A stretch of 64,000 nt of DNA from an uncultured Roseibium sp. (GTDB lineage Bacteria > Pseudomonadota > Alphaproteobacteria > Rhizobiales > Stappiaceae). Below are positions 28,939-36,460 of the stretch, piece by piece. The position numbers and the translations under genes are program-made. The stretch's first letter is position 1. Each line of letters starts with the position of its first letter. Below the pieces are notes generated by a model. That model did no database searches. It was given only the letters and a program-made list of their open reading frames with translations, and had not been told where the DNA came from. The DNA lies in contig NZ_CANLVF010000008.1 in assembly GCF_947494555.1 (NCBI RefSeq), forward strand, positions 110,537 through 174,536, given 5' to 3'.

Positions 28939-29100
28939 CGGGATCCGACAAGGTTTATCCAACGATAAAACCGGCACTGATCACAATTTTAACCTCGGGT
29001 CACTTCACGATTGCCACACAGGACTGTCATCTGCTTATGATTTGAATCAGGGAGCTGCCGCCTGCACTTATTCGCCGTGGGCTTCGGGAGAGAGAACGTA

Positions 29101-30348
29101 ATGGCCACCGGTCTTTTGATGCTGGCGATGTTTACGGTCTGCTACACGTTGCTGGCGAAGACGCTGTCAAATGGCATTCTGACCGCTCCAATCCTGTTTA
29201 TAGGCTTCGGCTACCTGATGTCGCAGACCGGGCTGATGCCTTTTGCCGAAGCAGAGCACCTTCTGCATATCGTTGCCGAGCTTGCGCTGATCATCCTCTT
29301 GTTTCTGGACGCCGCGCAGATCAACCTGAAGGCCCTGCGCGAGCGGCACCAGTGGCCGCTCAGGATGTTGCTTATCGGCTTGCCGCTCGCCGTCCTGATC
29401 GGCACCGCCGCCGCAGCGCCTTTCCTGACGACATACCCGCTCATTGTCGCAGCGCTGGTCGCGGCACTGCTCGCACCGACCGATGCCGCGCTCGGCCAGG
29501 CCGTCGTGACCAACAAAGCCGTCCCCGAACGTGTTCGTCGCGCGCTCACGCTGGAGAGCGGCCTTAACGATGGCCTTGCGCTTCCGGTCATCCTGCTCTT
29601 CGCCAGTTTAACCGCTGAAATGATGCACCAGGATACCACCAATTGGGTCCTGTTCGGCGCCAAACAGCTGATCTTCGGACCGCTGGTCGGCGGCATCATG
29701 GGATTTGTCGGCGGTTACCTTTTCCTCGCCGCCAAGCGCCGCAAGATGACATCGGTTACGATCGAGGGCATCGGTGCCATCGCAATGGCAGGAGCTGCCT
29801 ATCTCGCCGCCGGCATGGTGGATGGCAATGGCTTTATCTCCGCGTTCGTTGCCGGTCTGTGTTTTGGCAACGTTATCAAGGGCCAGTGCGCGTTCATCTA
29901 CGAGTTCACTGAAAACGAGGGACAAATGCTCGCATGGGGCGCCTTCTTTCTCATCGGGCTGGCGCTTTTGCCTGAGGCGATTGCGCATCTCGACGCCGGC
30001 ATGCTGACGATCATCCTCGTCAGCTTGTTCATCGTGAGGCCCCTTGCCGTCTGGCTGTCGCTTGCGGGAACAGATGCAGCGCCGCTCACGAAACTCTTTT
30101 TCGGCTGGTTCGGGCCACGCGGGCTCGCCACCGCATTGTTTGCACTTCTGGTCGTCGATCAAATCGATCACGAGATCGGCGCATATCTGTTGAACCTTGC
30201 CGTCAACGCCGTCTGGATCAGCGCCGTCCTGCACGGTGTCACCGCAGTGCCTTTAGCGAAGTGGTATGGTGCCCGTATGTCCGACAATGAAGGAGCCGCC
30301 GAAATGGCCGCCGTCCCGCCCATGCGGCCGGACAGCCCGGCCGAGTGA
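29101..30348 (+). CDS. Cation:proton antiporter (CPA1/NhaP-like)
   Basis: The start is the ATG at 29101 behind GGGAGAGAG. The 415-residue inner-membrane protein has about 12 hydrophobic segments and the CPA1 core motif ALLAPTDAALGQAVV, with the cation-binding Asp, and LTLESGLNDGLALPVI, with the conserved N-D pair; FGWFGPRGLATALFAL is the conserved late helix. It probably exchanges Na+ or K+ for H+. The C-terminal tail is short (about 30 residues, acidic and Pro-rich), with no RCK domain. Confidence 0.9.
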   Translation: MATGLLMLAMFTVCYTLLAKTLSNGILTAPILFIGFGYLMSQTGLMPFAEAEHLLHIVAELALIILLFLDAAQINLKALRERHQWPLRMLLIGLPLAVLIGTAAAAPFLTTYPLIVAALVAALLAPTDAALGQAVVTNKAVPERVRRALTLESGLNDGLALPVILLFASLTAEMMHQDTTNWVLFGAKQLIFGPLVGGIMGFVGGYLFLAAKRRKMTSVTIEGIGAIAMAGAAYLAAGMVDGNGFISAFVAGLCFGNVIKGQCAFIYEFTENEGQMLAWGAFFLIGLALLPEAIAHLDAGMLTIILVSLFIVRPLAVWLSLAGTDAAPLTKLFFGWFGPRGLATALFALLVVDQIDHEIGAYLLNLAVNAVWISAVLHGVTAVPLAKWYGARMSDNEGAAEMAAVPPMRPDSPAE

Positions 30349-30424: not shown

Positions 30425-32035
30425 ATGAAAAAACACGTTGTAGCCACCTTGAGCGCCCTGCCGGACCGCGATCCGCAATATGCGCTTGTCGCCGATGTCG
30501 ACTTGGTGGTCGTCCGGTTCGATGACGACATCTCGGTCTTTTACGGCAGATGCCTGCACCGCGGCGCTTTGATGTCCGACGGCTACGTAGATGGCGACAA
30601 TCTGATCTGCGGCGTTCATTATTGGGACTACCGCGTCGACAGCGGCGTTTCGGAATATAACAATTCCGAGGCCCTGCCCAAGTTCACCAGCTGGGTTGAA
30701 GGGGACGAGGTCTGCGTCGACGAGGACGAGATTGCCGCCTGGGGGAAGGAAAACCCCCAGCCGTTTCAGCGCGAGCAGTATCTGGGTCTTTACGCCGACA
30801 CAAGCCACGGCACCGAGGAAGAGCCCTATAACGGACTGATCCAGCAATATGCGCGCGATGGCCTCACCAAGACAGGTCACCACGGCCGGGTCGATGCGAT
30901 GGGCGTGCCGCGCACGCAGTTGCCCGACTGGGACGACATCCAGATCCTGACCGCACAATTGCAGCGCTTTCCGCTTCTCGATGACGATCCCGTCGGCACC
31001 GACGTCGTCATCGGACCCAACGCGCAAAAGCCCCTCCGCCTCAAGATCCCGCTTTTTGTCTCCGACATGAGTTTCGGTGCCTTGTCCGAACCCGCAAAAG
31101 TGTCCCTCGCCCGTGGTGCGGAATTAGCGGGCACTGGCATCTGTTCCGGGGAAGGCGGTATGCTTCCGGAAGAGCAGGAAGCCAATTCCCGCTATTTCTA
31201 TGAGCTCGCTTCGGCCCGCTTCGGCTTCGACTGGGCAAAGCTCGACCGGGTTCAGGCGTTCCATTTCAAGGGCGGTCAGGGTGCCAAAACGGGCACCGGA
31301 GGACACCTGCCCGGCGCCAAGGTGAAAGGCAAGATCGCCGAAGTGAGGGGCCTCGAGGAAGGCACCGACGCCATTTCACCACCGCGTTTTCCGGACTGGA
31401 CGGATTGCGCACAGGTCAAGGAATTCGCTGATGAGGTGCGTACGCGGACCGGCGGCATTCCGATAGGCTACAAGCTGTCGGCGCAGCATATCGAGAAGGA
31501 TATCGACGCAGCGCTTGAGGTCGGCGTCGACTACATCATCCTTGACGGGCGCGGCGGTGGCACCGGCGCTGCACCGATCATTTTCCGCGACAACATCTCC
31601 GTCCCGACGATCCCGGCCCTCGCCCGCGCGCGGCGTCATCTGGACAAATCCGGCAGGCCCGACGTCAGCCTGGTGATCACAGGGGGCCTGCGCAAACCCG
31701 CCGACTTCGTGAAAGCTATGGCACTCGGTGCAGATGCCATCGCCGTTTCCAATGCGGCCATGCAGGCCATTGGCTGCATCGCCATGCGCGCCTGTCACAC
31801 CAACAACTGTCCCGTCGGCATTGCCACGCAGAAACCGCATCTCGTCAGCCGCCTTCAGATCGAAAAATCCGCGCGGCAGCTGACCAATTTCTTTGAGGCC
31901 TCCGTCGAGCTGATGCAGGTGATGGCGCGGGCCTGCGGATACGCGCACCTGAACGAATTCAACCCGGACGATCTGACAACCTGGAAGCGGGAAATGTCCG
32001 ACCTGTCCGGCATCGCCTATGGCGGTGTCGCCTAA
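30425..32035 (+). CDS. Rieske domain fused to glutamate-synthase FMN domain
   Basis: A 536-residue fusion. Residues 1-105 form a Rieske [2Fe-2S] domain (CLHRG and CGVHYWDY, the C-x-H / C-x2-H ligand pairs). Residues of about 160-530 form the FMN-binding barrel of glutamate synthase (FVSDMSFGALSEPAKVSLAR, FHFKGGQGAKTGTGGHLPG, YIILDGRGGGTGAAP). GCIAMRACHTNNCPVG keeps the C-x5-C-x4-C ligands of the [3Fe-4S] cluster. The N-terminal glutaminase domain of GltB is absent, so ammonia would not come from glutamine here; the true substrate may be another amine or 2-oxo acid. First gene of the redox operon; ATG with GGGGGAAG upstream. Confidence 0.9.
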   Translation: MKKHVVATLSALPDRDPQYALVADVDLVVVRFDDDISVFYGRCLHRGALMSDGYVDGDNLICGVHYWDYRVDSGVSEYNNSEALPKFTSWVEGDEVCVDEDEIAAWGKENPQPFQREQYLGLYADTSHGTEEEPYNGLIQQYARDGLTKTGHHGRVDAMGVPRTQLPDWDDIQILTAQLQRFPLLDDDPVGTDVVIGPNAQKPLRLKIPLFVSDMSFGALSEPAKVSLARGAELAGTGICSGEGGMLPEEQEANSRYFYELASARFGFDWAKLDRVQAFHFKGGQGAKTGTGGHLPGAKVKGKIAEVRGLEEGTDAISPPRFPDWTDCAQVKEFADEVRTRTGGIPIGYKLSAQHIEKDIDAALEVGVDYIILDGRGGGTGAAPIIFRDNISVPTIPALARARRHLDKSGRPDVSLVITGGLRKPADFVKAMALGADAIAVSNAAMQAIGCIAMRACHTNNCPVGIATQKPHLVSRLQIEKSARQLTNFFEASVELMQVMARACGYAHLNEFNPDDLTTWKREMSDLSGIAYGGVA

Positions 32036-32062
32036 TCCGGTCAGGATATTTTGAGGGAGACC

Positions 32063-34042
32063 ATGATGAACACTCAATCGCTTGACTGGATCAGGATCGG
32101 TCATACCGACGATTTGCCGGAAGGCCGCGTCAAGACCGTAACCGCCCGCACGACATCCATCTGCCTGTCTCACTTCGATGGGCAGTGGGCCGCCATGGAA
32201 AATCACTGCCCGCATCAGCGTGGTCCGCTTGGCGAGGGTTCCATCGAGAAGGGAACGGACGGAAAGTGCTGGATACGCTGTCCGTGGCACGGTTGGGATT
32301 TCGATCCGCTTACCGGCAAGCCCCCGGGCGGACACGAAGACAGCGGTCAGCAGGTCTACCCGCTCAAGATTGAGAACAATGAGATCTTCGTCGGGCTCGA
32401 AGCCGAACCGGAGCACGAGCGCACCGCAACCGACGTCATGGCCGAGACCATGGTCAACTGGGGCGTAAAGCGCGTCTTCGGCATGGTCGGCCACTCCAAT
32501 CTCGGCCTTGCCGATGCAATCCGGCTGCAGGTCAACAAAGGTAATCTGGGCTTCGTCGGCATCCGCCATGAAGGTGCCGCGGCGTTTGCGGCCTCCGCCT
32601 ACGGCAAGCTGACGGGCAAGCCCGCCGGTTGTCTGACCATTGCCGGCCCGGGTGCGACCAATCTTCTGACCGGCCTTTGGGACGCCAAGGTCGATCGCGC
32701 ACCAGTCCTGGCCCTCACCGGTCAGGTTCAGACCCAGGTGTTTGGCCCGGGTGCGTTTCAGGACATTGATCTGAAATCGGCCTTTGATGCGGTGTCCAGA
32801 TTCTCCCAGCCCGTCCTGAGCACCTCCAACCATGCCGAACTCATGTCGCTCGCACTCAAGACAGCCATTGTCGAACGGGATGTCGCCAATCTGATTTTCC
32901 CGGACGATGTCCAGACGATCCCGAGCGAAAAACCGGCTGGCCGTCCGGAAGGGCGCCTCGGCGGAACGGAGATCTCGCCCTCGCCGGACGATCTCGCCAA
33001 GGCGGCCGAGATGATCAACGGCGCGAAACGCCCAACGATCGTGCTCGGCTACGGCGCCAAGGATGTACGCGACAAGGTCATCGCGCTGGCCGAAAAGATC
33101 GGCGCGCCGGTGATGACCACCTTCAAGGGCAAGGGACTGATCCCGGACACGCACCCGCTTGCAGCAGGCGTGCTCGGCCGGTCCGGGACGCCCATCGCCA
33201 GTTGGTTCATGAACGAGGCGGACCTCATCATTTCGCTCGGTTCTTCCTTTGCCAACCACACCGGGATCGCGCCCTACAAGCCGATCATCCAGGTGGATTT
33301 CGAGCGCATGCAGCTCGGCAAGTTCCATCCGGTGACGCTTCCGGTCTGGGGTGAAATCGGCACATTCTGCAATGCTGTATCAGGCTCCGTCTCGCAAGCC
33401 GACGATGCTGCAGACCAAAGGGCAGAACTTGTCGAACGATGGGCCATCTGGCGCGAGGAAAAGGAAACGCGGCTGTCGGAAAATCACGGCGGCGGCATTC
33501 ATTCCGCGGCGGTGTTCAAGGCACTGACGGAACTTTGCCCGGACGATGCCATCATCCCCGTCGATGTCGGCAACAACACCTACTCATTCGGCCGCTATTT
33601 CGAACCGCGTGGTCAGAGGATCCTGATGTCCGGCTATCTCGGCTCCATCGGATTCAGTCTGCCGGCCGCGCTCGGAGCCTGGTGCGCAACACAGGACTTC
33701 GAGGAATACAGGGGTCGCAAAGTCATCTCGATTTCTGGCGACGGCGGCTTCGGTCAATACGCGATGGAATTCACCACCGCCGTCAAATACGGCATGAACA
33801 TCACGCATATTCTTCTCAACAACTCCGAACTTGGAAAGATCTCCAAGGAACAGCGGTCCGGAGAATGGCCGGTCTGGGAGACCAATCTCACCAACCCGTC
33901 CTTCGCCGCCTTCGCCCGTCTTTGCGGCGGCCATGGCCACCGTGTCACGGAGGCATCCGAACTTTCCGATGCCATCGCCAATGCGATCGCCCATGACGGA
34001 CCCTCGCTTGTGGAAATAGTAACCGACGCGGATCTGGTGTGA
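32063..34042 (+). CDS. Rieske domain fused to thiamine-diphosphate enzyme
   Basis: About 659 residues from the ATG at 32063 (32066 equally possible) behind GAGGGAG. Residues of about 8-110 are a Rieske domain (CPHQRGPLGEGS and CPWHGWDF). The remainder is a full three-domain ThDP enzyme of the acetolactate synthase/pyruvate oxidase superfamily: the cofactor-activating Glu in IRHEGAAAFAASAYG, then AGPGATNLLTGLWDAK, and the Mg/ThDP motif GDGGFGQYAMEF ending in LLNN. I know no characterised enzyme with this fusion. It may oxidise a 2-oxo acid and pass electrons directly to its own Rieske cluster (inference). It lies 27 bases after the Rieske-FMN gene. Confidence 0.9.
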   Translation: MMNTQSLDWIRIGHTDDLPEGRVKTVTARTTSICLSHFDGQWAAMENHCPHQRGPLGEGSIEKGTDGKCWIRCPWHGWDFDPLTGKPPGGHEDSGQQVYPLKIENNEIFVGLEAEPEHERTATDVMAETMVNWGVKRVFGMVGHSNLGLADAIRLQVNKGNLGFVGIRHEGAAAFAASAYGKLTGKPAGCLTIAGPGATNLLTGLWDAKVDRAPVLALTGQVQTQVFGPGAFQDIDLKSAFDAVSRFSQPVLSTSNHAELMSLALKTAIVERDVANLIFPDDVQTIPSEKPAGRPEGRLGGTEISPSPDDLAKAAEMINGAKRPTIVLGYGAKDVRDKVIALAEKIGAPVMTTFKGKGLIPDTHPLAAGVLGRSGTPIASWFMNEADLIISLGSSFANHTGIAPYKPIIQVDFERMQLGKFHPVTLPVWGEIGTFCNAVSGSVSQADDAADQRAELVERWAIWREEKETRLSENHGGGIHSAAVFKALTELCPDDAIIPVDVGNNTYSFGRYFEPRGQRILMSGYLGSIGFSLPAALGAWCATQDFEEYRGRKVISISGDGGFGQYAMEFTTAVKYGMNITHILLNNSELGKISKEQRSGEWPVWETNLTNPSFAAFARLCGGHGHRVTEASELSDAIANAIAHDGPSLVEIVTDADLV

Positions 34043-34063: not shown

Positions 34064-34172
34064 GCCTCATCCTGAGGAGGACCGGAAGGTCCGTCTCGAA
34101 GGATCGGACAAAAGGTCTGTATCAGTTGGCCCATCCTTCGAGACAGCGCTTTGCGCTTCCTCAGGATGAGGC
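34064..34172. repeat. Intergenic element with perfect 15-base terminal inverted repeats
   Basis: GCCTCATCCTGAGGA at 34064 is the exact reverse complement of TCCTCAGGATGAGGC at 34158. Inside lie GTCTCGAAGGAT (34092) and ATCCTTCGAGAC (34133), a perfect 12-base inner pair. A half-copy (CGTCTCGAAGGAT with GAGGAGGACC) sits at 61725-61769. Insertion lies within the redox operon, between its second and third genes. Confidence 0.7.
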
Positions 34173-34246
34173 TAATTTTAACTCCCAGGTGCGAAAACAA
34201 CCGCTCCAGCCGGGACGACAAGTCGACAGAATGTGGGGAATTAAGA

Positions 34247-34468
34247 TTGCAAAGTGCAGCATTACTTCTTGAGCTTGGCCGCTGGTACCTGATGGCCGGC
34301 GGCGTCGTGGCGGCCGCATTTCTTGTCTTTGGCATCGATCGGGTGGAACCGTCCGCGCGCGGTTCCTACGCGTTTCGGCCCCTTCTGATACCGGGCATCT
34401 GCCTGATCTGGCCGCTGGTGCTGTATCGCTGGTTCACCCTGGAAAAACATGGAGAAGACGCTCGGTGA
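34247..34468 (+). CDS. Small two-helix membrane protein of the redox operon
   Basis: The track ORF runs back through the repeat element; the best start is the TTG at 34247 with GGGG 8 bases upstream, giving 73 residues. Two hydrophobic segments are evident, WYLMAGGVVAAAFLVFGI and LLIPGICLIWPLVLYRWF, separated by a short basic/acidic loop. Its 3' end overlaps the next small gene by 4 bases (GTGA), and the operon continues, so it is probably a genuine accessory membrane subunit. No family is recognised. Confidence 0.65.
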   Translation: MQSAALLLELGRWYLMAGGVVAAAFLVFGIDRVEPSARGSYAFRPLLIPGICLIWPLVLYRWFTLEKHGEDAR

Positions 34469-34638
34469 AACGCGCTCATCGCACAGCTCACGCCCGGATC
34501 TGGACGATCCTCGGTATCTTGCTGCCTCTGGCATTCTTCACGGTCTTGACCCTTCGGCAGACACCTCCGGCGGACCGACCCGCCATTCTCGTTGAAGCGC
34601 CAGCAGGCGATCCAAACGGCGCGGAGGCATCTCAATGA
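34465..34638 (+). CDS. Very small single-helix membrane protein (57 aa), not in ORF track
   Basis: This GTG-started gene is too short for the supplied track. Translation gives a basic N-terminus (VKRAHRTAHAR), one transmembrane segment (IWTILGILLPLAFFTVLTL) and a Pro/Ala-rich tail (TPPADRPAILVEAPAGD). It overlaps the preceding gene by 4 bases and its stop overlaps the next ATG by 4 bases (ATGA). This double coupling strongly suggests it is expressed. It is probably a small subunit of the membrane redox complex; no family recognised. Confidence 0.7.
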   Translation: MKRAHRTAHARIWTILGILLPLAFFTVLTLRQTPPADRPAILVEAPAGDPNGAEASQ

Positions 34639-35702
34639 GTGTGCAATACACACCGGTCATCTGGAACCGGAACAAGATCTTCTACGACGCCGTGCTGCTG
34701 ATTGCGGTCGCGCTTTACCTCTATATCTACATCCGTGTCGCACCCGGCTACGAGGATGTCACCAAGCCGATTGACGGTGCAATCCTGCGCATGAGGGCGT
34801 TCGGCAGCTGTGCCTTTCTGATGCTGACGGTGATCTTGTGCATCGGACCGCTCGCACGCCTCGACCGGCGGTTCCTGCCACTCCTCTACAATCGCCGGCA
34901 TTTCGGCGTGATGACGGCGGGCATCGCAGCTGTCCACGCCAACTATGTCCTGACCTGGTACTACAATTTCTCACCGACCGACAAATATGTCGCTCTTCTG
35001 TCTTCAAACACCAACTATGGGCAGGTCCTCGGATTTCCCTTTGAAACCTTGGGGATCGCGGCGCTTCTGATCCTGTTTGTACTCGCTGCGACCAGCCACG
35101 ACTTCTGGCTTAGCTTTCTGGGCGCGCCGATCTGGAAAGCGCTGCATATGTTCATTTATGCTGCCTACGCATGCGTTGTCCTGCATGTAGCGCTCGGCGC
35201 GCTTCAGGGCGCGGGAGATCCGATCTTTACCAGCGTCGTTGCGGCGAGCGTTGTCCTTGTATCGGGACTTCACTTTGCCACCGGCCGCATGGAAGCCCGG
35301 CGGGACCGGGGCGAAGAGACGGCCAAGGCATCGCTTCAGGAGAAAGGCTGGCTGGTCGCAGGAGAGTTGGATGAGATCGACGATGACTGCGCCAAGGTCG
35401 TAACTTTGTCGGACGACGAACGGGTTGCCATTTTCAAGTACGACGGCAAGCTGTCGGCGATCACCAATGCCTGTGCGCACCAGAACGGCCCGCTCGGAGA
35501 AGGCAAGGTGCTCTGGGGCTGCATTACCTGCCCCTGGCACGGTTATCAGTACAATCTCAGCGACGGCCGCGCACCGGCACCGTTCACCGAAAAGATCTCG
35601 ACCTACAAACTGAAATTGATCGGATCGACAATCCTGCTTGATCCGAATGCGCTGCCACCCGGCACCCATGTGGACCCAGTCGAAATCGGAGAAGCGGCAT
35701 GA
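34635..35702 (+). CDS. Ferric-reductase-like heme membrane domain fused to a Rieske domain
   Basis: A 355-residue fusion. The first 230 residues or so are a polytopic membrane domain of the ferric reductase/MsrQ type. His pairs in RRHFGVMTAGIAAVHANYV and LHMFIYAAYACVVLHVALG are suited to bind b-heme. After a charged linker (MEARRDRGEETAKASLQ), residues of about 235-345 form a cytoplasmic Rieske domain (CAHQNGPLGEG, then CPWHGYQYNL). It probably accepts electrons from, or donates them to, the soluble Rieske fusions encoded upstream and links them to the quinone pool or an outside acceptor (inference). Coupled to its neighbours by 4-base overlaps on both sides. Confidence 0.88.
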   Translation: MSVQYTPVIWNRNKIFYDAVLLIAVALYLYIYIRVAPGYEDVTKPIDGAILRMRAFGSCAFLMLTVILCIGPLARLDRRFLPLLYNRRHFGVMTAGIAAVHANYVLTWYYNFSPTDKYVALLSSNTNYGQVLGFPFETLGIAALLILFVLAATSHDFWLSFLGAPIWKALHMFIYAAYACVVLHVALGALQGAGDPIFTSVVAASVVLVSGLHFATGRMEARRDRGEETAKASLQEKGWLVAGELDEIDDDCAKVVTLSDDERVAIFKYDGKLSAITNACAHQNGPLGEGKVLWGCITCPWHGYQYNLSDGRAPAPFTEKISTYKLKLIGSTILLDPNALPPGTHVDPVEIGEAA

Positions 35703-36460
35703 GCTGGAGACAGACGAAAGACGCCCCCTTCTACGTCGGCTACCTGAATGCGGTGCCGAAGCAGCTGGTCATGTTCCTCGTTGTCTTCTCTGTCTGTTTT
35801 GCAGGCGGCCTTGGAATCGCGGCACTCGCGCTTTCGTCAACGCAGAACGATCCGGGCAACGGTGGTTTCCAATGGGGCAACCGGTTTGAGAATGTCGGTG
35901 TCCTCGAACTGCGTCCCTATCCCGTTCTTCGGGTGCCGGCGGACGGCGAAACCCCTGCGCGAACCTATATGCTTGCCGGCCAGGGAAAACGCGGAGCATT
36001 CAGTCAGGCGGAAAAAAACCAGGACGGTCCCGTAACCTTGCGCGGCGTTCCAGTCAATCGCGGGGATCTCACCATGATCCAGGTCGGGCGGGTTGAGGCC
36101 GTCGAAGGAAATGCTCCCGACTTTACACCCGCAGGACCTGTGCCGCTCGGCCGCTGGAAACTGACCGGAGAAATCTGTGACGGCAAGTGTTACGCCGGGG
36201 CCATGCGCCCGGGCCGCGGCCTTGCCCACAAGGCCTGCGCAGATCTCTGCCTGACAGGTGGCATACCGCCGGTCTTCGTCTCGTCTGGCCCGGTTGAAAA
36301 CCGCAATTTCTTTTTGATGGCCGATCAGGACGGGAACCTGATCGGTGACGAAATCAAACCATTGCTGGCGCTTTACGTTGAACTGGAGGGCGACGTCGAA
36401 CGCCTCGATGATCTGATGGTCTTCAAGGTAGACCTTGCAAAGGCGAGGATCCTGAAATGA
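35699..36460 (+). CDS. Membrane-anchored protein with conserved Cys/His motif
   Basis: A 253-residue protein with one N-terminal transmembrane segment (QLVMFLVVFSVCFAGGLGIA) and an otherwise soluble, probably periplasmic domain. A striking motif near residues 160-190, EICDGKCYAGAMRPGRGLAH followed by KACADLCLTGGIPP, has four Cys and one His in metal- or disulfide-type spacing. I have seen similar stretches in uncharacterised proteins linked to Rieske genes but know no function. It overlaps the heme-Rieske gene and the final small membrane gene by 4 bases each, marking it as an integral part of the operon. Confidence 0.75.
   Translation: MSWRQTKDAPFYVGYLNAVPKQLVMFLVVFSVCFAGGLGIAALALSSTQNDPGNGGFQWGNRFENVGVLELRPYPVLRVPADGETPARTYMLAGQGKRGAFSQAEKNQDGPVTLRGVPVNRGDLTMIQVGRVEAVEGNAPDFTPAGPVPLGRWKLTGEICDGKCYAGAMRPGRGLAHKACADLCLTGGIPPVFVSSGPVENRNFFLMADQDGNLIGDEIKPLLALYVELEGDVERLDDLMVFKVDLAKARILK

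Follow-up and report, generated by a model that had tools for sequence, protein, structure and literature searches.

The known electron acceptors of enzymes that oxidise 2-oxo acids are lipoamide/NAD, [4Fe-4S] ferredoxin, quinone and oxygen; pyruvate:ferredoxin oxidoreductase (PFOR) is a thiamine-diphosphate (ThDP) enzyme that delivers the electrons to Fe-S clusters. In the class of ThDP enzymes that includes pyruvate oxidase (POX) and PoxB, the active site sits at the dimer interface, and in other superfamily members the FAD site holds ADP or stays empty. To our knowledge, the function of bacterial CDGSH domains is largely unknown. PoxB has a C-terminal tail with a lipid-binding helix that activates the enzyme at the membrane, and residue F465 of PoxB (F479 of the L. 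plantarum enzyme, LpPOX) is said to enhance the transfer from ThDP to FAD (PMC7245740). Proteins in which a double CDGSH module is joined to the glutamate-synthase domain (GltS) are known as type 5 CISD (PMC3174974). Single domains, CDGSH-GltS and FRD-Rieske proteins are already known, whereas the fusion of a Rieske domain to a ThDP enzyme, and its three-part association with Rieske-GltS and the membrane protein FrdRsk, appear to be undescribed. A literature search, with most subscription journals outside its reach, found no paper on the Rieske-ThDP fusion.

The Rieske-ThDP gene and its family

We analysed a stretch of 64,000 nucleotides from an uncultured Roseibium sp. (the window), whose source genome comprised 7.0 Mb in the whole-genome search. 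The gene under study and its parts are located as follows.

32063..34042, + strand: Rieske-ThDP fusion gene, 659 aa, a single ORF, kept at full length in other loci
32087..32392, + strand: Rieske [2Fe-2S] domain, residues 9-110, soluble dioxygenase-ferredoxin type (PF00355, 1.2e-16; nearest solved structure 2qpz)
32207..32290, + strand: cluster ligands C49-x-H51 ... C73-x2-H76, invariant in 96/96 sequences
32423..32776, + strand: ThDP PYR domain (TPP_enzyme_N by Pfam), with E170 at 32570-32572 and an invariant GHSNLG that includes H144
32993..33376, + strand: ThDP middle domain (TPP_enzyme_M by Pfam), predicted FAD site, with D412 and R373 invariant
33563..34018, + strand: ThDP PP domain (TPP_enzyme_C by Pfam), with GDG...NN, K592 and E596

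The putative ATG start at 32063 has a ribosome-binding-site-like stretch, GAGGGAGA, ahead of it; the longer alternative would start at the TTG at 32051. The complete Rieske domain is joined through a short linker to an equally complete ThDP enzyme (residues 120-658). Pfam analysis of the 659-aa ORF gave matches above the cut-off for Rieske (1.2e-16, residues 9-88), TPP_enzyme_N (2.5e-31), TPP_enzyme_M (2.8e-35) and TPP_enzyme_C (1.4e-32). The activating Glu of the ThDP part is E170, in RHE, and the Mg/ThDP motif is G559-D560-G561...N586-N587. The AlphaFold2 monomer model of the fusion had a mean pLDDT of 82 and a pTM of 0.83.

In a scan of the collection, 515 stretches were found to encode some relative, and the best 80 of these 515 were taken. 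The aligned family set consisted of the window and 95 further loci (96 sequences), with identities from 96% down to 54%. C49, H51, C73, H76 and E170 were identical in all 96, and the spacing from the Rieske to the ThDP part (H76 to T121) was 46 residues in 93/96. Mean identity within the family was 80% for the Rieske part and 76% for the catalytic part. The preliminary description of this DNA had claimed a Rieske domain fused to a ThDP enzyme, with CPHQRG, CPWHGW, an activating Glu and GDG...NN as the telling motifs, and had suggested looking at the conservation of the ligands in homologues. Pfam, the single ORF and the other loci confirmed the fusion, the motifs are all present, and the comparison of homologues found the Cys and His ligands in every sequence. 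Identity fell from 54% to 36% with nothing in between, and the matches at 36% were ordinary ThDP enzymes, e.g. pyruvate oxidases, without a Rieske domain; because of this gap and the Rieske-less enzymes below it, the fusion defines the family.

The nearest named relatives of the window gene belong to Roseibium/Labrenzia (86-96% identity). The fusion was also present on plasmids of the haloarchaea Halorubrum, Halorarius, Salinirubellus and Haloferax (57-60% identity) and on a plasmid of Mycobacteroides abscessus (52% identity), these plasmid records being the whole source for its occurrence in Halobacteria and Actinomycetota. The family amounts to hundreds of matching genome stretches, and the RefSeq records of the plasmids from all five genera annotate the fusion as a single gene that is labelled only 'thiamine pyrophosphate-binding protein'. 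A chance motif or an assembly artefact was ruled out by the Pfam scores and by independent genomes with the identical fusion. Judged from these sequences, the Rieske-ThDP fusion is real, ancient and conserved.

The surroundings of the plasmid copies were also recorded. The haloarchaeal copies (five loci) are found amid mercury/arsenic, DsrE, pirin, DUF3179 and M20 hydrolase genes, and the Mycobacteroides abscessus copy adjoins DUF4331, TetR, flavodoxin-family and cation:proton antiporter genes.

Class of the catalytic part and type of the Rieske part

A sequence search of the PDB gave E. coli PoxB as the top match, with C. glutamicum pyruvate:quinone oxidoreductase (PQO) also among the top matches. 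The best match in the fold search was the C-terminally truncated E. coli PoxB (3eya, TM 0.87 by target), and the artificially tail-less C. glutamicum PQO (9ev6) was likewise among the best. In a quick tree of the ThDP part, in which some outgroup branches were long, all 28 family members formed one clade (SH-aLRT 100), which was sister to the POX/PoxB clade (SH-aLRT 99 for the joint clade) and stood apart from the AHAS-like paralogues. The best NCBIfam score was obtained with the PoxB/POX equivalog model, at 394 bits, and did not reach the cut-off of 742. As far as such comparisons can tell, the ThDP part of the fusion is a separate family within the pyruvate-oxidase/PoxB class. The acetolactate/acetohydroxyacid synthase class was rejected (TIGR00118, 283 bits against a cut-off of 538; the tree and the fold also speak against it), and the 'acetolactate-synthase-type' assignment made earlier did not stand. 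The suggestion that the enzyme would be a solution distinct from PFOR did: POR/PFOR families had no Pfam match in the fusion protein, and the fusion was conserved, with its ligands kept, in all 96 homologues aligned.

E596, at the position of Glu483 in LpPOX, is invariant, and so are two residues of the FAD region, D412 and R373. FAD would be the likelier immediate electron acceptor, with the Rieske cluster next, because the FAD-site residues around D412 and R373 are retained. At the position of PoxB F465/LpPOX F479 the family has an invariant Lys (K592), and the first electron step is therefore not transferable unchanged from POX. In the alignment the fusion lacked the PoxB-type C-terminal tail, and another electron outlet is therefore plausible. 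DMSP synthesis and sulfonate metabolism were considered as the source of the substrate and dropped, as there was no linked gene. At two CDGSH-type loci (see below), both from one family, an ilvD-like gene (dihydroxy-acid dehydratase, recognised by eye) lies immediately upstream of the ThDP gene, which may be a weak hint at a 2-oxo-acid substrate.

The Rieske domain of the window resembles the soluble ferredoxins of naphthalene and biphenyl dioxygenases, and the solved structure nearest to it is the naphthalene dioxygenase ferredoxin 2qpz. Its CPHQRG and CPWHGW motifs occur without the extra disulfide Cys of the high-potential bc1 Rieske proteins. By its family membership the domain is predicted to be a low-potential one-electron carrier. 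We read it as an electron carrier because it groups with the dioxygenase ferredoxins, which are dedicated one-electron carriers, and because its ligands are invariant.

Neighbouring genes and exchange of Fe-S modules

The neighbours of the Rieske-ThDP gene in the window are listed below.

29077..30348, + strand: CPA-type cation/proton antiporter (K+/H+-like), a conserved neighbour
30425..32035, + strand: Rieske-GltS, a Rieske domain and a glutamate-synthase FMN/[3Fe-4S] domain (Pfam), a conserved neighbour
34151..34468, + strand: orf105, a small hydrophobic protein travelling with FrdRsk (locus comparison)
34635..35702, + strand: FrdRsk, a ferric-reductase-like heme-b membrane domain with a C-terminal Rieske domain (Pfam, Ferric_reduct 4.2e-11, Rieske 1.5e-14)
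35699..36460, + strand: orf253, one TM helix and predicted extracytoplasmic OB-like domains, with C160, C164, H177, C180 and C184 conserved

Rieske-GltS ends 27 bp upstream of the Rieske-ThDP gene and keeps the [3Fe-4S] motif C-x5-C-x4-C. From its hydrophobic stretches and charged loops, FrdRsk is predicted to have six helices with both termini in the cytoplasm. The orf253 protein, whose gene accompanies FrdRsk in the loci seen, has the conserved motif GEICDGKC..G.M.PG.G..H.ACA.LC, which looks like a metal or Fe-S/heme site. No Pfam or other family was found for orf253, and its AlphaFold2 model gave only weak OB-fold matches in the PDB (best E 0.01).

Across the family loci, Rieske-GltS was the commonest neighbour, and FrdRsk and orf253 were near in about half. 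Rieske-GltS is near the Rieske-ThDP gene on the Halorarius plasmid, together with the antiporter, and on the Salinirubellus plasmid, and it is on the same plasmid in Halorubrum; on the Mycobacteroides plasmid an antiporter is near the gene. No FrdRsk gene turned up on the plasmids, haloarchaeal or mycobacterial, that carry the fusion. At six loci a pair of ECF sigma and zf-HC2 anti-sigma genes was seen upstream of the antiporter, in most cases pointing away from the genes for the antiporter, Rieske-GltS and Rieske-ThDP, and stress control of the cluster by this pair is possible. In fifteen loci without FrdRsk nearby, a DUF5996-like gene follows the ThDP gene after about 0-45 bp.

Co-occurrence was determined in an even sample of 289 genomes of the class, with Rieske-ThDP in 13/289, Rieske-GltS in 8/289 and FrdRsk in 15/289. 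Rieske-ThDP was carried by seven of the eight Rieske-GltS genomes. FrdRsk was present in 7/7 genomes with both Rieske-ThDP and Rieske-GltS versus 8/282 others (p 2e-10), and after collapse to family groups the association between Rieske-ThDP and Rieske-GltS had a p of 2e-6; shared ancestry inflates all of these p-values, the collapsed ones included. The three genes were on different contigs in two genomes and spread over about 65 kb in two others. FrdRsk was missing from all six Rieske-ThDP genomes without Rieske-GltS. It was present without Rieske-ThDP in eight genomes and was not found on the plasmids, and is therefore not a universal partner of the enzyme; since it occurs without any Rieske-ThDP gene, FrdRsk has other partners. 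Two further loci also had FrdRsk without a Rieske-ThDP gene, with orf253-like neighbours on Rhizobium plasmids.

In five of the six Rieske-ThDP genomes without Rieske-GltS, the ThDP enzyme had additional Fe-S modules at its N-terminus, and FrdRsk was absent from all five of these CDGSH-type genomes. The order was CDGSH-Fer4_19-CDGSH-Rieske-ThDP in L017-L020 (three by Pfam, L019 by motifs) and CDGSH-CDGSH-Rieske-ThDP in L016. The added N-terminal stretch measured about 90-225 residues, giving up to four Fe-S centres and ThDP in one chain. GltS proteins with a double CDGSH replacing the Rieske domain were found at six loci, including Vibrio plasmids; they are about 70% identical to the window Rieske-GltS and are the closest to it after the Rieske-bearing ones. 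Two unrelated catalytic domains, ThDP and GltS, thus have [2Fe-2S] modules from one small set at the same end. We see in this swapping the strongest argument for an electron-carrying role of the Rieske domain.

Candidate electron route, alternatives and known systems

The reading that we prefer, and to which we give an even chance, is that the fusion is a soluble FAD/ThDP 2-oxo-acid oxidoreductase of the POX class that passes electrons via its Rieske domain into a Rieske-based relay. We infer from the comparisons above that it binds FAD, uses a 2-oxo acid, moves electrons outwards in the order ThDP-FAD-Rieske and contacts FrdRsk. A 2-oxo acid would be decarboxylated on ThDP, and the two electrons of the enamine would most likely go to FAD and then, one by one, to the N-terminal low-potential Rieske cluster, fed by FAD semiquinone steps. 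A further one-electron carrier would receive them from the Rieske domain; in the window organism the most likely candidate is the cytoplasmic Rieske domain of FrdRsk, and FrdRsk may hand them on to the quinone pool or to orf253 as an extracytoplasmic partner. Rieske-GltS would plug into the same relay, and where FrdRsk is missing the electrons could leave through the CDGSH/Fer4_19 modules. The main doubt about the ThDP-FAD-Rieske route arises because the Phe of POX is an invariant Lys here, which leaves room both for direct transfer from ThDP to the cluster and for a regulatory role.

Such a regulatory role would make the Rieske domain a redox switch on a non-oxidative ThDP decarboxylase or carboligase, a sensor outside the catalytic path that is set by the Rieske/CDGSH pool or by oxidants. 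The change of the aromatic bridge residue of POX to an invariant Lys and the unusual invariant GHSNLG, with H144, in the PYR domain are in its favour, as is the pH-lability of CDGSH clusters (PMC3174974), and the ECF sigma/zinc anti-sigma genes upstream at several loci and the detoxification genes around the haloarchaeal copies would suit stress control. We nevertheless consider a switch unlikely, as a sensor needs no three kinds of carrier module, the enzyme groups with oxidases rather than carboligases in the tree, and the co-occurring heme-b Rieske membrane protein suggests electron flux. Direct reduction of the Rieske cluster by the ThDP enamine or radical, flavin-free and PFOR-like, was the proposal of the preliminary description. 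It would agree with the missing Phe bridge, with the short linker of constant length and with the addition of further one-electron modules at the same end, but the FAD-site residues are kept and the enzymes nearest to it in the tree and in fold are flavoenzymes, so that we regard it as rather improbable.

We give equally little credence to a scheme in which a single reaction has the ThDP enzyme at one end and Rieske-GltS at the other, with electrons from the 2-oxo acid going through the Rieske domains to a reductive amination of 2-oxoglutarate or a related acid by GltS, and with FrdRsk only balancing the pool. The 27 bp between the two genes in the window, the presence of Rieske-ThDP in 7/8 Rieske-GltS genomes of the class, the proximity of the pair on two haloarchaeal plasmids and its joint presence on a third, and the retained [3Fe-4S] motif of GltS would all fit. 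However, the Rieske domains of the two proteins have little in common, Rieske-GltS is missing from six genomes with the ThDP enzyme, and FrdRsk follows the pair too closely to be incidental. That the Rieske domain is a passenger fixing only the quaternary structure is scarcely credible and largely refuted, as nothing specific speaks for it, the four ligands are invariant in 96/96, and conservation is no lower in the Rieske part than in the catalytic part (80% vs 76%).

Returning to electron transfer from the fusion into a Rieske-based relay, there is a credible chance that the fusion is a member of a new kind of relay. In the wider form of this proposal, which we hold tentatively and at less than an even chance, unrelated enzymes with interchangeable low-potential [2Fe-2S] plugs would feed a common heme-b Rieske membrane protein from a cytoplasmic Rieske/CDGSH relay. 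It would be common to marine Alphaproteobacteria and, as regards the ThDP enzyme, GltS and the antiporter, to haloarchaea, and its ThDP member would be the first with a built-in Rieske acceptor and with as many as four Fe-S centres in a row (CDGSH-Fer4_19-CDGSH-Rieske-ThDP). If true, the built-in acceptor would be another electron outlet for 2-oxo-acid oxidation, instead of oxygen or the membrane quinone. The parallel Rieske/CDGSH swap in the ThDP enzyme and GltS would give bacterial CDGSH domains a testable role, as electron plugs for metabolic enzymes.

Compared with known systems, FrdRsk has the same architecture as the FRD-Rieske proteins of module M4 (PMC3591440), which the available part of that source gives as a domain architecture, with no ThDP or GltS partner named there. 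Type 5 CISD (PMC3174974), with small [2Fe-2S] modules ahead of the glutamate-synthase FMN domain, is the CDGSH counterpart of the window Rieske-GltS but includes no ThDP enzyme. PFOR differs from the fusion in its other ThDP architecture, its CoA dependence and its [4Fe-4S] clusters. The core fold and the catalytic Glu residues are common to the fusion and L. plantarum pyruvate oxidase (1pox), but the latter passes electrons to oxygen and has a C-terminal tail and Phe479 and no Fe-S domain. With PoxB and PQO (E. coli 3ey9/3eya, C. glutamicum 9ev3-9ev6) the fusion shares the three-domain ThDP core, the activating Glu, the FQ[DE] loop, the equivalent of LpPOX Glu483 and the predicted FAD site. 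In contrast to both, it is without the C-terminal lipid-binding tail and carries an N-terminal Rieske domain, in some members with CDGSH/Fer4_19 modules, and compared with PoxB it has an invariant Lys for F465 and a His for the Asp in the G-D-S motif.
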